A stretch of DNA of 64,000 nucleotides, taken from the NCBI RefSeq assembly GCF_003416765.1, contig NZ_QSNG01000001.1, positions 1,700,742 through 1,764,741 on the forward strand, given 5' to 3'. The first letter of the stretch is position 1. Every line of letters begins with the position of its first letter. The notes below the pieces were generated by a model. The model saw only the letters and a list, made by a program, of their open reading frames with translations. It was not told where the DNA came from and searched no databases. The position numbers were made by a program, and so were the translations under genes. The DNA is from Paratractidigestivibacter faecalis. Its GTDB lineage: Bacteria; Actinomycetota; Coriobacteriia; Coriobacteriales; Atopobiaceae. Positions 2,127 to 21,226 of this stretch are shown here, piece after piece.

Positions 2127-4166
2127 CTACCCCCGCACCTCGAAGGAGATGTCCCCCTGCTCCAACGTGTCGACCCTGTCGACGATCCGGCGCAGCGTCT
2201 CCATCTTCTCCGACGTCGAGCACCCGGGGTTGTACCAGATGCCGCCTCCGATCTCGAAGCCGTAGCCCAAGGGCTCGGTCGAGAAGTACCTCGACGGGAA
2301 CCTCCCTCCCGTCACCGCGGCCCTGAACGCGCGGGGGTCCTCGGCGTAGACCCGAGGCAGCAGCCAGCGCATGGCCTCCACCCACGTGCCCACGGCGGCC
2401 CGCTCGCCACGCAGGGAACACGCCGACACCTTGAGCCCGGTGAACTCGAACCCGCCGTCCAGAGCGTGGCTCTCGCGCGCGGCCTCAGCCGGCGCGTAGG
2501 TGCTCTCGGGCATCGGCCACAGCTTGAGGAACCTCGACCAGAGCCTCTCGCGCCTCTCCTCGATCTCCCGGATGCCCCACCTGTCGCAGAGGGCCACCGC
2601 GCGGCTCAGCCTGAGGCCGCTGTCCCTGAAGCCGCTCTCGCGGTCCCTCTTGTCCGCGAACGGGTTGTTCGAGTACTGGGAGTTGTAGCCGGTCAGCGTG
2701 AGGTTGCCGATGGTGTTGACGTATGCGGCGTGGACCTCGTCGTCGGCCTCTTCGCCGAGCTCGTGGCGCCACTGCGGGCTGAGGGTCTGGGGCATGATGT
2801 GCTCGACCGTCAGGGTGCCGTCCTCCAGCATCCCAACCACATTCACGCGCTCGACGCTGTCCCCGTTCTCGAGCCTGTCGTAGAGGTAGAGGCGCTTCCG
2901 GTCGATGTGGTAGAAGTCTCGCCACTCGAAGCAGCGCCTGAACTCGTCGTCCCTGGGCAGGACCCCGGCGCCCTCGCGGCGCAGCAGCGAGTACTTGAGC
3001 GCGTTGGCGTAGCCCTGGCCGTCCGCGACGCCCCTCTCCGCCTCGCGGTGCAGGGTCTCGAACACTTTGTTGAGCGCGTTGGTGGGGACCCTGCAGACCC
3101 ACCTCCTGAACAGGTACGTCTCCACGGCAAGAAGTGCCTCGACGAGCTCGCTCTCGCCTATCTCCCCACCCTCGAACGAGGCCAGGGCGCTCATCAGGAA
3201 CGGCGTCGTGACGCCCGCGTCGAGAAGCCCGAGTCGCCTCAGGACCGCGTTGGCCCTCGCAGAGGGGCACGACGCCCCCTCGGCCTGACGATAGAGCTCG
3301 GAGTACCTCAGCAGCTCGGCGAGCAAGTCCCCGGCGACGCGGTTGGCGGCGTGCCCCCTGAACTCGGGGTAGACCCGCGCGATGGCCGGGGTCCTCCCCG
3401 TGGCGCACGTGAGCCAGTCGCGGACGAAGCCGCTCACGTCGTAGCCGCAGTTGGCCTCGATGGGGTTCCAGTACTTCGTGTAGCACTCCTCCTGCTCGGC
3501 CTCGGGCAGGTCCATGAGGACGTAGTTGCAGATCTTGTCGCCCTCGGAGAGGGCCAGGCCGGTCGAGTTCAGGCTCTCGAAGATGAGCTGCGCGTCGTCG
3601 TCCGCCTCGAGCCTGATGTCGATGACGGTGAGTGCCTTGATCGCGTCGCGGAGCTCCTCGGCGGTCAGGCCCGTGGCCCCGACGCGCCCGAGCAGGTAGC
3701 GGTAGTTCTCCGTGACGTTGGACCCCTCGACGAGCTTGTCCGCGTCGCCCTCGACGACCCGCTTGAAGGCCTCCTGGTCGTCCTTGATCAGCTTGAGCTT
3801 GAGCTTCTCCACCTCGTCGAACTCGTCGATGAGTCACTCGCGGCGAATCCTGTCGGCGGTCCTCCCCGGGCTCTCCGAGGCGACGTTGCCAGCCTCGAGC
3901 TGCGCGACGAGTGCGGCCAGGAGTATGAAGACCGTCGTCACGCGCTGCTGGCCGTCTATGAGCACGCGACGGTCCATGTCGGCCTTGGACACTATGCTTC
4001 CGAAGAAGTGGGAGGCGCGCCCCTCCCTGGCGATTCCCTCGAGGTCGTCGAAGAGGCGCTCGCACTGCTCCTGCCTCCAGTCGTAGTTGCGCTGGTAGAC
4101 GGGGATGACGAACCTCGTGTCGGCACCCTGGAGCATCTTGACCAGCGGCTTTGCGTCTCCGCGCAT
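2127..4166 (-). pseudogene. GmrSD-type (DUF262 + DUF1524) restriction nuclease, interrupted by an in-frame TGA
   Basis: Reading starts at ATG 4166 (AGGAGTAGGGGGA upstream). It gives 110 residues of DUF262 N-terminus with VIPVYQRNYDW, FFGSIV and the signature DGQQRVTTVF, then meets TGA at 3834-3836. The same frame continues immediately as LIDEFDE, then GTG at 3812 and 561 more residues to TAG at 2127. The second part holds the rest of DUF262 (LIFESLNSTGLALSEGD), a DUF1524 HNH-like nuclease region (VEHIMPQTLSPQW, NTIGNLTLTGYNSQYSNNPF) and a C-terminal extension of about 110 residues. Fused GmrSD proteins are type IV restriction enzymes acting on modified phage DNA. With the stop the P-loop-like DGQQR part and the nuclease are made separately or not at all, so it is probably a recently inactivated gene. 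Reinitiation at GTG 3812 is possible but its ribosome site is poor. There is no frameshift. Confidence 0.85.
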
Positions 4167-9601: not shown

Positions 9602-9849
9602 CACGTTTTGGGTTCGCGGATTTGGCGGCGAGACAAGCAGCACTTGATGAGCAGCTCTTCTACCTGCGCTTTTGCTACGCCATTCTGGGAAGCCACCGCA
9701 ATCGCCCGGTAGACCGAACCCAAACCGGATATTGATTTGGGTTCGCCGCTCGGCCGGTCCCGAGGCGGCAAAAAGACCCGCAGGCCTCTGACCTGCGGGT
9801 CTTGTTTCTCGTCTCTGCGACGGCGCCCGAACCGCGAACCAAAAACGTG
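9602..9849. repeat. 248-bp element with 18-bp terminal inverted repeats and internal copies
   Basis: CACGTTTTGGGTTCGCGG (9602-9619) faces CCGCGAACCAAAAACGTG (9832-9849), matching at 17 of 18 positions. Inside, CGAACCCAAA (9715-9724) faces TTTGGGTTCG (9736-9745) across an 11-nt loop, so the unit TTTGGGTTCG occurs four times in alternating orientation. The malic-enzyme terminator lies within it. A short minus-strand frame crosses it without start context. The rest of the pepT upstream gap (9461-9883, 423 bp) shows no gene. It looks like a miniature inverted-repeat or REP-type element. Confidence 0.6.
9770..9803 (-). terminator. Terminator after malic enzyme
   Basis: On the minus strand, GACCCGCAGG-tcagagg-CCTGCGGGTC is followed by TTTTT (9770-9774). 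The perfect 10-bp stem lies about 80 nt after the malic-enzyme stop. Confidence 0.85.
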
Positions 9850-14391: not shown

Positions 14392-15132
14392 ATGGAAGCA
14401 AAGCTTACGGTCAACGGATTTGGGTTCGTGGCCCGTTATGGGGAGAAGGACGTGGAGCGCGTTCTTCTCCCCTTGCTTATGCGGCTGACGGAGCTGCAGG
14501 CAGAGCGCGACAGACGGCTGATTGCCTTCCTTGCGGCGCCGCCCGGGGCGGGCAAGAGCACGCTTGCGGCCTTTATGGAGTGGCTCAGCCGGCGCACGCC
14601 CGAGGCGACGCCGCTGCAGGCCGTGGGCATGGACGGCTTCCACTGCCCCAACGCCTACCTGGACGCGCACTCGTTTGTTGACGAGGACGGGCGCGAGGTG
14701 GGCATGCGCAGCCGCAAGGGCGCTCCGCAGACGTTTGACGTCGAGGGGCTCCGCGCCGCGCTAGCGGACGCGCGGAGCGACGCGCCCGCTCCGTGGCCCA
14801 CCTACTCTCGCGTCATGCACGACGTCGTTCCCGCAAGCCTTCCCATTGACGAGAAGATCCTGCTGGTTGAGGGCAACTACCTGCTGCTTGACGAGGGGCG
14901 CTGGAAGGGCCTCGCCGAGCTTGCCGACTACACCGTCTTTCTGAGCGCGCCCGAGGCGCTGCTGCGGGAGCGCCTGGTTGCCCGCAAGGTGGCCGGCGGC
15001 TCCACGCCCGAGGAAGCCCGGGCCTGGTACGAGGCAAGCGACGGCCGCAACGTGGCCCGCGTCCTGGCCCACCACTCCCCCGCCGACCTTGAGCTTGCGC
15101 TGGGAGCTGACGGCAGCCTCACGGTTGCGTGA
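14392..15132 (+). CDS. P-loop kinase of the uridine kinase / FrcK-like family
   Basis: The product is 246 aa; ATG lies 3 nt after the previous stop. Walker A is AAPPGAGKST near residue 48, then VGMDGFHCPNAYL (substrate loop typical of the phosphoribulokinase/uridine kinase/pantothenate kinase clan), PTYSRVMHDVVP, and a Walker-B-like ILLVEGNYLLLDEGRW. It probably phosphorylates a nucleoside, sugar or sugar phosphate in the cytoplasm; the substrate is unknown. The stop codon lies inside the outer arm of the nested inverted repeat that follows. Confidence 0.82.
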   Translation: MEAKLTVNGFGFVARYGEKDVERVLLPLLMRLTELQAERDRRLIAFLAAPPGAGKSTLAAFMEWLSRRTPEATPLQAVGMDGFHCPNAYLDAHSFVDEDGREVGMRSRKGAPQTFDVEGLRAALADARSDAPAPWPTYSRVMHDVVPASLPIDEKILLVEGNYLLLDEGRWKGLAELADYTVFLSAPEALLRERLVARKVAGGSTPEEARAWYEASDGRNVARVLAHHSPADLELALGADGSLTVA

Positions 15133-15244
15133 CGGTTTTGGTCACGAGCCAGAAAGCACTTCTCGCCGGCACGGGCGTTTGCCCAGTTGGCGAGAAGTGC
15201 TTTCAAACAGTTGCATTTTAGACGTGACGGAAACCGTCACGCAA
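15125..15244. repeat. Nested inverted repeat between convergent genes
   Basis: Outer arms TTGCGTGACGGTTT (15125-15138) and AAACCGTCACGCAA (15231-15244) match over 14 bp. Inner arms GAAAGCACTTCTCGCC (15152-15167) and GGCGAGAAGTGCTTTC (15189-15204) match over 16 bp, with a 21-nt loop that itself contains GGGC/GCCC. The right outer arm can also fold alone (CGTGACGG-aaa-CCGTCACG). No T-run follows on either strand. Confidence 0.75.
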
Positions 15245-15246
15245 GA

Positions 15247-15276
15247 AGGACCCCGGGGCGTGGGCCTCGGGGTCCT
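15247..15276 (-). terminator. Hairpin after nfnB, probable terminator
   Basis: AGGACCCCG pairs with CGGGGTCCT. On the minus strand it is followed by TTCTTG, a weak U-tract. It lies about 33 nt after the nfnB stop. Confidence 0.5.
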
Positions 15277-15308: not shown

Positions 15309-16730
15309 TTAGATCTGGCCCTCGGCGGCAGCCTTGGTGATGCTGGCGGCGGCCTTCTTGCCGGCGCCCATGGCCAGGATGACCGTGGCGGCGCCCGTCA
15401 CGATGTCACCGCCGGCCCAGATGCGGGGATCGGTGGTCTGGCCGGTCTCCTCGTCGGCGACGATGTAGCCCCACTTGTTGAGCTCCATCTTGCCGCCGAT
15501 CTTCTTGGCGAACGGGTTGGCGTTGGTGCCGATGGCGGAGATGGCAACGTCGCAGGGAATCTCCTCGATGGCGCCCTCGATGGGCACCGGGCGACGGCGG
15601 CCGGACTCGTCGGGCTCGCCAAGCTCCATCTTCTGGACCTTGACGGCGCAGACGGTGCCGTCCTCGCCGGCCACGAACTCAAGCGGGGACACCAGAGGCA
15701 TGACCTCGACGCCCTCAGCCTTGGCGTGGTGCAGCTCGGCGCGACGGGCGGGCATCTCGTCCTCGGTGCGGCGGTAGGCGATGATGGCGCGCTCGGCACC
15801 AAGACGCTTGGCCGTGCGGACAGCGTCCATGGCCACGTTGCCGCCACCAAAGACCACGACGTTCTTGCCGTGCTTGGTGGGGGTGTCGTACTCCGGGAAG
15901 TTGTTGGCCTTCATCAGGTTCACACGAGTGAGGTACTCGTTGGCGAAGAAGACGTTGGGCAGGTTCTCGCCGGGGACGTTGAGGAACTTGGGCAGGCCAG
16001 CGCCGGTGGCAACGTAGATGGCGTCGAAGCCCTTCTCGAAGAGCTCATCGGCCGTGGTGATGTTGCCCACGACGGAGTTGTACTCAAACTTGACGCCCAG
16101 CTCCTCAAGGCCGTCAATCTCACGCTTGACGACAGCCTTGGGCAGACGGAACTCGGGGATGCCGTAGACCAGCACGCCGCCGCCAGTGAAGAAGGCCTCG
16201 AAGACGGTGACGTCAAAGCCGTTGCGGGCGAGCTCGCCGGCGCAGGTGATGCCGGACGGGCCGGAGCCAACGACGGCGACCTTCTTGCCGTTCTTGGGGG
16301 CCATCTTGGGCTTTGAGGCAAGCTCGGGCTGGTCGCCGACGAAGCGCTCCAGCTGGCCGATGGCCACGGGCTCGGACTTCTTGCCGCGGACGCACTTGCC
16401 CTCGCACTGGTTCTCCTGCGGGCAGACGCGGCCGCAGATAGCCGGCAGCATGGACTCCTCGCGGATGATGTCCAGGGCGCCGCCAAAGTCCTCCTCGCGG
16501 ATCTTCTCGATGAACTTGGGGATGTTGATGTTGACCGGGCAACCCTCGACGCAGAGCGGCTTCTTGCAGTCCATGCAGCGCTCGGCCTCGGCCAGCGCCA
16601 TCTCCTTGGTGAAGCCCTTGTCGACGGGACGGAAGTCGCAGGCGCGCTCGGCGGCCGGCTCCTCGTTGTCAGCGGTGCGCGGGGACTTCATGTCCGGAAC
16701 AAAGCGACCGTTTACCTGTACCTGTGGCAT
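15309..16730 (-). CDS. nfnB: NfnB-type large subunit: NADPH-dependent ferredoxin oxidoreductase (GltD-like)
   Basis: The product is 473 aa from ATG 16730, with GAGGAGG inside the end of nfnA. With NfnA it forms the flavin-based bifurcating transhydrogenase that couples NADH, NADPH and ferredoxin in anaerobes. Two [4Fe-4S] sites are visible: C52, C55, C60, C64 (CMDCKKPLCVEGCP) and C99, C103, C109, C113. The FAD motif VVGSGPSG and the NAD(P) motif VFGGGNVAMDAVR follow, ending with GGDIVTGAATVILAMGAGKKAA. The alternative name, glutamate synthase small-chain homologue, is less likely because the partner gene is nfnA and no gltB is present. It overlaps nfnA by 19 nt. Confidence 0.9.
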   Translation of the reverse strand: MPQVQVNGRFVPDMKSPRTADNEEPAAERACDFRPVDKGFTKEMALAEAERCMDCKKPLCVEGCPVNINIPKFIEKIREEDFGGALDIIREESMLPAICGRVCPQENQCEGKCVRGKKSEPVAIGQLERFVGDQPELASKPKMAPKNGKKVAVVGSGPSGITCAGELARNGFDVTVFEAFFTGGGVLVYGIPEFRLPKAVVKREIDGLEELGVKFEYNSVVGNITTADELFEKGFDAIYVATGAGLPKFLNVPGENLPNVFFANEYLTRVNLMKANNFPEYDTPTKHGKNVVVFGGGNVAMDAVRTAKRLGAERAIIAYRRTEDEMPARRAELHHAKAEGVEVMPLVSPLEFVAGEDGTVCAVKVQKMELGEPDESGRRRPVPIEGAIEEIPCDVAISAIGTNANPFAKKIGGKMELNKWGYIVADEETGQTTDPRIWAGGDIVTGAATVILAMGAGKKAAASITKAAAEGQI

Positions 16731-18407: not shown

Positions 18408-18442
18408 AAAGTTGACAAAGGGACTGTCCCTTTGTCAACTTT
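18408..18442. repeat. 35-bp near-perfect palindrome with GGGACtGTCCC core
   Basis: AAAGTTGACAAAGGGAC (18408-18424), one central T, then GTCCCTTTGTCAACTTT (18426-18442): 17-bp perfect arms. It lies 7 bp after the prs stop. The same core recurs at 23467-23494, again at a gene 3' end. Confidence 0.85.
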
Positions 18443-21145: not shown

Positions 21146-21179
21146 AAAAGGCGAGAAGCGCGCGCTTCTCGCCTTTTTT
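21146..21179. terminator. Terminator built from an inverted GGCGAGAAG pair
   Basis: AAAAGGCGAGAAGCG and CGCTTCTCGCCTTTTTT form a 15-bp stem with a 2-nt turn and six T residues on the plus strand. It ends tRNA-Gln and, with four T residues on the other strand, may also end the minus-strand glycosyltransferase transcript (stop at 21227). Both stem halves contain the interspersed octamer. Confidence 0.9.
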
Positions 21180-21226
21180 GTTGCGCCTTGGGTGAACGGG
21201 GCAGCCCCGATTGCGTTTTGGGTTCG

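Follow-up and report, generated by a model that had tools for sequence, protein, structure and literature searches.

A nested palindrome between two convergent genes

The stretch of DNA analysed here (the window) comprises 64,000 nucleotides of the Paratractidigestivibacter faecalis genome, and the question raised by the locus under study is what kind of element the nested palindrome between two of its genes represents. The first-pass annotation described two perfect arm pairs on one axis at 15125-15244, the outer pair beginning in the stop region of a kinase gene and the inner pair bearing the motif GGCGAGAAG; it held that the structure was not a simple terminator and suggested a cruciform, an uptake-signal pair or a small mobile element. 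The coordinates given for the arms proved correct, and so did the placing of the stop codon and of the motif (Table 1). The outermost 14 nt of the outer arms are perfectly complementary (TTGCGTGACGGTTT and AAACCGTCACGCAA, 15125-15138 and 15231-15244), and the pairing extends to 22 nt at 91% complementarity, each outer arm being nearly palindromic on its own (CGTGACGGTTTTGGTCACG, CGTGACGGAAACCGTCACG). The inner arms are complementary at 16/16 positions with 21 nt between them, and the outer and inner pairs have a common axis. The structure is far above chance: folded as single-stranded DNA, 15118-15251 reached -46.9 kcal/mol against a mean of -20.1 for 200 shuffles (z = -9.96, none as low), and 364 kb of this genome contained 29 perfect inverted repeats (arms of at least 14 nt, loops of at most 100 nt), compared with 1, 1 and 0 in three Markov resamplings. 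The 16-mer of the inner arm has two exact matches in the genome, both at the window element, and the window copy, when read through, contains neither a GTAG nor a CTAC tag.

Table 1. Features at the window locus and arm types found around the core
Feature	Position	Strand	Remarks
Whole nested palindromic element, arm type W	15125-15244	+	
Left outer arm, TTGCGTGACGGTTTTGGTCACG	15125-15146	+	Itself near-palindromic; holds kinase stop TGA (15130-15132)
Right outer arm, CGTGACGGAAACCGTCACGCAA	15223-15244	+	
Left inner arm, GAAAGCACTTCTCGCC	15152-15167	+	
Right inner arm, GGCGAGAAGTGCTTTC	15189-15204	+	Carries the over-represented motif GGCGAGAAG
Conserved core, GCGTTTGCCCAGTTGGCGAG	15175-15194	+	On the palindrome axis
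Apical mini-hairpin, GGGC-GTTT-GCCC	15173-15184	+	From the single-stranded DNA fold
Upstream gene, uridine-kinase-like (PF00485)	14392-15132	+	Last codons and stop within left outer arm
Convergent gene, glutamate synthase small-subunit-like oxidoreductase (Fer4_20, Pyr_redox_2)	15309-16730	-	
Separate GC-rich hairpin outside the element	15247-15276	-	Arms of 13 nt at 92%
Second element of the same design, arm type F	9604-9745	+	TTTTGGGTTCG at 9607, inverted at 9715
Arm type W	Window copy and one other, about C1:121597-121720		Other copy in reverse orientation
Arm type A, GCGTACATTTTGACAA			
Arm type D, CTACGTTTGCGTTTT			
Arm type E, CTATGTTTGGCTCTTG			
Arm type F, TTTTGGGTTCG			
Tractidigestivibacter palindrome arms, GTTCTTTAGCGG			

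The kinase gene and the oxidoreductase gene both run into the element region, in agreement with the convergent arrangement noted earlier. At the element itself no GC-rich hairpin followed by a T-run was found, and a promoter and terminator scan of the window locus returned nothing except a 5-pair stem at shuffle level (1 match against a shuffle mean of 0.4); this result, together with a core that is kept across genera (see below), upholds the view that the palindrome is not a simple terminator. At gathering scores, Rfam detected tRNAs alone in the window, and the element locus gave two sub-threshold chance matches. The hairpin at 15247-15276 is probably the terminator of the minus-strand oxidoreductase gene. 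The kinase gene is present in 38 of 140 genomes of the family. Among 30 kinase loci, for which the strand was assigned from the longest frame, incorrectly in some cases, the convergent neighbour downstream was seen at the window's own locus only, and no empty site orthologous to the window copy was found.

A dispersed element family with a common core and variable arms

The window palindrome is one copy of a dispersed family of DNA elements. When at most one mismatch is allowed, 26 of 140 genomes from the same bacterial family, belonging to 7 of 35 genera, contain the core GCGTTTGCCCAGTTGGCGAG; the reversed control gave 0. Exact matches were obtained in 11 stretches of a genome contig collection, all titled Olsenella, Tractidigestivibacter, Jeddahella or Atopobiaceae (we take the first three to be members of the last), and in viral contigs there were none. 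In a set of 81 core sites from this and related genomes, from which duplicates with identical central sequence were removed and in which a few sites are counted twice, 64 were flanked by outer arms unmatched by any of 60 shuffles, and the core lay on the axis wherever the arms were close to it. A looser 14-mer, TTTGCCCAGTTGGC, was found at 19 places in this genome (control 0); 11 of these have arms that none of 100 shuffles equalled, and several of the remaining 8 look like coding coincidences. Of 20 copies picked with no requirement for the core, most retain it, some with GGTCGCGAG replacing GTTGGCGAG.

Around this core, at least five arm types (W, A, D, E and F) are present in this genome. 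Arm type F contains the top over-represented 10-mer of a 364-kb sample (20 occurrences against 0.17 expected), and close to the centre of the window's F element the minus strand reads GCGCAGGTAG, which is core-like. In Tractidigestivibacter- and Olsenella-type genomes, a single arm type gave at least 7-53 matches per genome with one 821-base query, a count to which flanks and the two palindrome strands contribute; 32 copies align gaplessly to an 81-nt consensus. Element length is about 80-140 bp, and the half-sites are in most cases separated by 70-110 nt; the elements are intergenic, scattered and found in all gene orientations, 12 of the 81 sites being convergent by a rough gene call.

Sites with and without an element could be compared between relatives by means of joined-flank queries, which revealed both states among Tractidigestivibacter-type genomes, a site being filled in some species and empty in others. 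The site L146 is empty in two genomes, the sites L151, L149 and L115 each have relatives with an empty site, and L152 probably has empty relatives as well. Element boundaries vary between sites, and a 6-bp direct repeat was seen at one of them; no consistent target-site duplication was clear at the empty sites compared. The small mobile element comes closest among the earlier guesses, as it fits a dispersed family with filled and empty sites in relatives. The link to nuclease-like genes described below was not foreseen.

It is also possible to ask whether the arms act as DNA or as RNA. Among 53 distinct copies of the 81-nt class (class B), the conserved arm columns held 14 G-U against 10 A-C pairs, and at one arm position each arm has G or T irrespective of the other. 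Since there is no clear G-U excess and G and T vary in this manner, the arms have the appearance of inverted half-sites for a DNA-recognising factor, and not that of an RNA stem maintained by selection. A cruciform remains a possible shape for the palindrome, but it offers no explanation of the element.

Several further repeats were observed. A perfect palindrome with 17-nt arms, AAAGTTGACAAAGGGAC-T-GTCCCTTTGTCAACTTT, lies at 18408-18442 of the window; three other sites of the 364-kb sample hold close copies of it, and it forms a separate dispersed repeat. Another, with perfect 16-nt arms (AAAAGGCGAGAAGCGC/GCGCTTCTCGCCTTTT), is located at 21146-21177, right after a tRNA, and a lone F-type motif is found at 21217. 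Elsewhere in this genome (L184, 10146-10247) there is a palindrome with perfect 44-nt arms, a 14-nt loop and no core. One locus (L098, 1360-1640) has three tandem cores at 125-nt spacing beside a gene of the family described below, with arms GGTTAGTGCCC, and in a joined flank sequence of a Tractidigestivibacter-type genome (L148) a long palindrome, GTGTACAATTTGGAA...TTCCAAATTGTACGC, adjoins a class B element.

Palindromes at genes for nuclease-like proteins

Genes of one protein family are associated with such palindromes, and the arms match between the two sides of a gene and according to protein relatedness. Two D elements (C1:534852-534977 and 536286-536408) bracket a gene of 389 aa (C1:535092-536258), a homolog in another genome adjoins another core element (L111), a distant homolog in this genome sits between F palindromes, and in Olsenella sp. 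SIG37 (L088) a homolog at 2213-3313 (-) is enclosed by two core elements whose arms are TTTTCGGACACAACC. A profile made from the first three of these genes gave matches for 132 of 140 genomes of the bacterial family; the highest number in a single genome was 23, and the present genome has 10.

A gene was regarded as bordered when perfect arms of at least 12 nt, 60-115 nt apart, were present within 350 bp of it. In set 1 (50 genes), which includes the genes that gave rise to the idea and for which the rule was fixed after a first look at 30 of the loci, a palindrome was found at 22/48 left and 23/49 right flanks (45/97 in total), as compared with 5/1940 in shuffles and 1/57 at control kinase flanks. 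Of the 47 genes with both flanks available, 31 had a palindrome within 350 bp and 16 had none. Close to the genes, 32.6 kb contained 50 palindromes, and at a distance from them 141.5 kb contained 10, a count that omits the genes in the 20-kb stretches of the window's own genome (L171-L174); duplicates with identical central sequence were removed from set 1. Set 2 consisted of 20 genes taken in list order, one per genome, and chosen before inspection; here 11/39 flanks and 10/19 genes were bordered (9/19 were not), against 1/800 in shuffles, and three of the 20 genes have one common arm type, so that they are not fully independent. Within the set 2 loci, all 13 palindromes lay in the 14 kb closest to the genes, and the other 68.8 kb had none. 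It should be kept in mind that the gene set contains close relatives and that the counts are in part non-independent.

For 11 genes bordered on both sides, the common-substring sum between left and right arms was 142, whereas 500 permutations gave a mean of 54 and a maximum of 104. Arms sharing at least 9 nt were seen in 8/8 gene pairs with at least 80% protein identity, in 2/6 at 60-80%, in 18/123 at 45-60%, in 3/252 at 35-45% and in 0/172 below 35%. Central stretches of the gene-bordering palindromes matched the window core at 11/15 positions or more in 16 of 45 cases (shuffles 2.1%), and others carry core variants such as CCGCAGGT, as read by eye. Since the gene family is found in 132 of 140 genomes and the window-type core in 26 of 140, the core variants must differ.

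Arms are found both beside and away from the genes. In 758.5 kb of this genome, the 15-mer of the D arm occurs 8 times (4 copies adjoin its gene, and the other 4 belong to two elements at further sites), and the F motif TTTGGGTTCG occurs 26 times, 7 beside its gene and 19 elsewhere. No gene of the family lies within the window, and none with W arms was seen among the four family genes located in those 758.5 kb of the 2.1-Mb genome. Likewise, the search for a cognate gene of class B, which has a high copy number in Tractidigestivibacter, gave none, and this class is linked to the others by core and design only. At one locus (L174, 14265-16598) two near-identical tRNA-like stretches apparently enclose the D-type gene together with both of its elements (similar frames only). 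The apparent partnership of gene and palindrome is not described in the open papers searched.

The protein family

In an alignment of 38 members, S243-P244, E246, N270, D291 and R321 are invariant and E302, H309 and D318 are conserved in at least 90%, the conserved C-terminal residues thus following the order SPxE, N, D, E, H, D, R; by analogy, the acidic and histidine residues among them may be catalytic. Pfam gave weak matches to MTES_1575, a Vsr-type nuclease domain and the most frequent match, in 6 of the 38 members (best 3.9e-4) and to an AbiEi_4-like N-terminus in one (E 0.029), but no Y1_Tnp, and most members are without any Pfam family. The only sensible solved relative in PDB is 3r3p, a 'Mobile intron protein' (E 0.023), which we take to be a homing endonuclease domain. 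Together, the conserved residues and the weak profile matches point tentatively to a Vsr-type nuclease domain. PADLOC detected nothing for three members, NCBIfam gave nothing sensible, and a single-sequence fold was too poor to use (pLDDT 34). Homologs are present in Collinsella, where they are annotated as hypothetical, and none was found in phage records or viral contigs. A 1785-base Collinsella 'plasmid' with a homolog was considered as an excised circle and dismissed; the same assembly labels an 899-kb record a plasmid, and no such palindrome was present.

Possible roles of the element

The reading that we favour, and which seems to us reasonably probable, is a REPtron-like system, in which a gene has cognate palindromes dispersed through the genome and the enzyme is an unrelated nuclease, with the window element as a dispersed non-coding copy. 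Each protein would recognise its own palindromes, the arms through its variable part and the core through its conserved part, and would nick or cut them, probably when they are extruded or single-stranded. Such cutting could spread or maintain non-autonomous copies in trans, as is thought for TnpA-REP on REP palindromes. The window copy may then be an outlier or a remnant of such a set; it would have inserted at the kinase gene's 3' end and would once have belonged with a gene bearing W arms. We infer recognition, cutting and mobilisation by the family proteins from the data above. Points that speak against this reading are the missing cognate genes for W arms and for class B, the genes of both sets that have no palindrome by the rule, the lack of a clear target-site duplication, the weak profile matches behind the nuclease assignment, and the many genomes in which the gene family occurs and the window-type core does not. 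The fuller proposal, for which we would claim slightly less than even chances, is that of a second, independently evolved system of this type, in which Vsr-type paralogs each read their own arms and the common core and copy or move the elements chromosome-wide, the window element being such a copy.

Among other explanations, the proteins might be DNA-binding regulators, the palindromes serving as operators both beside the regulator genes themselves and at dispersed sites of a regulon. The conservation of half-sites as sequence rather than as pairing and the AbiEi-like N-terminus found in one member would suit this, but the palindromes lie downstream of the genes as often as upstream (23/49 and 22/48), the window copy stands between convergent genes with no promoter there (12 of 81 sites are likewise convergent by a rough gene call), and the common core and the nuclease-like residues are left unexplained; we therefore consider regulation unlikely. 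Somewhat less probable still is a MITE-like relic moved by an ordinary transposase, with the nuclease genes as passengers or insertion targets. While this agrees with elements that are dispersed, intergenic and present at filled and empty sites, conservation across genera is at the centre and not at the ends, the arms vary inside one genome and track protein relatedness, target duplication is not clear, and in the set 2 loci the palindromes cluster at the family genes.

The motif in the inner arm raises the third of the earlier suggestions, namely an uptake or recombination signal that is repeated hundreds of times, often inverted in terminator stems, and of which the window palindrome would be an elaborate pair. 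In the 364-kb sample, GGCGAGAAG is about 4-fold over-represented (134 occurrences against 33 expected), and it forms 13 close inverted pairs compared with 0 for 60 permuted 9-mers. It is enriched between genes (43 are intergenic), often in terminator-like stems, and overlaps the core of the element. For GCACTTCTCGCCA there are 162 near-matches against 2 when reversed. The motif is possibly an uptake or other signal in its own right, but as an account of the palindrome this is improbable: it explains neither the fixed design and the gene link nor the outer arms and that part of the core which reads TTTGCCCAGTT. Least probable of all, and in our opinion hardly tenable, is a bidirectional terminator or RNA hairpin: its convergent position and strong fold are countered by the lack of a T-run hairpin beyond the shuffle-level stem, by the class B copies with no clear excess of G-U over A-C pairs, by the absence of an Rfam family at the locus and by elements in every gene orientation.

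Should the REPtron-like reading be true, palindromic repeats could be kept and spread by a restriction-type nuclease, beyond the HuH transposases, and the multiplication of REP-like palindromes, which is unsolved, would become testable with an enzyme of unrelated origin. Many 'hypothetical proteins' of Coriobacteriia would then gain a function, or at the least DNA substrates, and the pairs of arm and protein would form a natural set for a recognition code. Even if the idea of mobilisation is wrong, the matched link between gene and palindrome needs explaining.

Comparison with known systems

MITEs and ERIC-type intergenic palindromes are short, palindromic, dispersed and intergenic, with filled and empty sites; the present element differs from them in having a conserved centre, variable ends and a physical link to a family of nuclease-like genes. 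With uptake signals (USS/DUS) it shares an over-represented short motif that often occurs in inverted pairs, but here the motif is part of a larger fixed design. Readings as attC, RAYT/GTAG or group II elements were dropped on anatomy. With regard to the protein, the MTES_1575 REase (PMC3710099) and 3r3p show a weak profile likeness over the catalytic region; both are domains of other proteins, and dispersed palindromes are unmentioned for them in the accessible text of PMC3710099.

The closest comparison is with the REPtron, defined in PMC8266576 as TnpA-REP (RAYT, an HuH Y1 enzyme) with its cognate REP/BIME palindromes, the mechanism by which the palindromes spread being still to be solved according to the accessible part of that paper. 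As far as the system is laid out there, the likeness lies in a palindrome-bordered gene, dispersed cognate palindromes and co-variation of enzyme and palindrome (PMC8266576). Bordered genes were found here in 31/47 and 10/19 cases, but not for the window copy, and dispersed cognate palindromes are provided in this genome by arm types D and F. The differences, again with respect to the accessible part of PMC8266576, are that the REPtron enzyme is of the HuH/Y1 type, whereas profile searches do not identify the present family as HuH and show a likeness to Vsr-type nucleases; that REPs are hairpins of 20-40 nt with a GTAG tag, whereas the present elements are about 80-140 bp with a central core; and that several paralogs occur per genome, unlike in the REPtron. 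Because the enzyme differs and the elements are larger and have a core, the system is not a REPtron by membership, but it may work like one: enzyme and element are unrelated to the REP pair, and at the level of concept the arrangement is REPtron-like.
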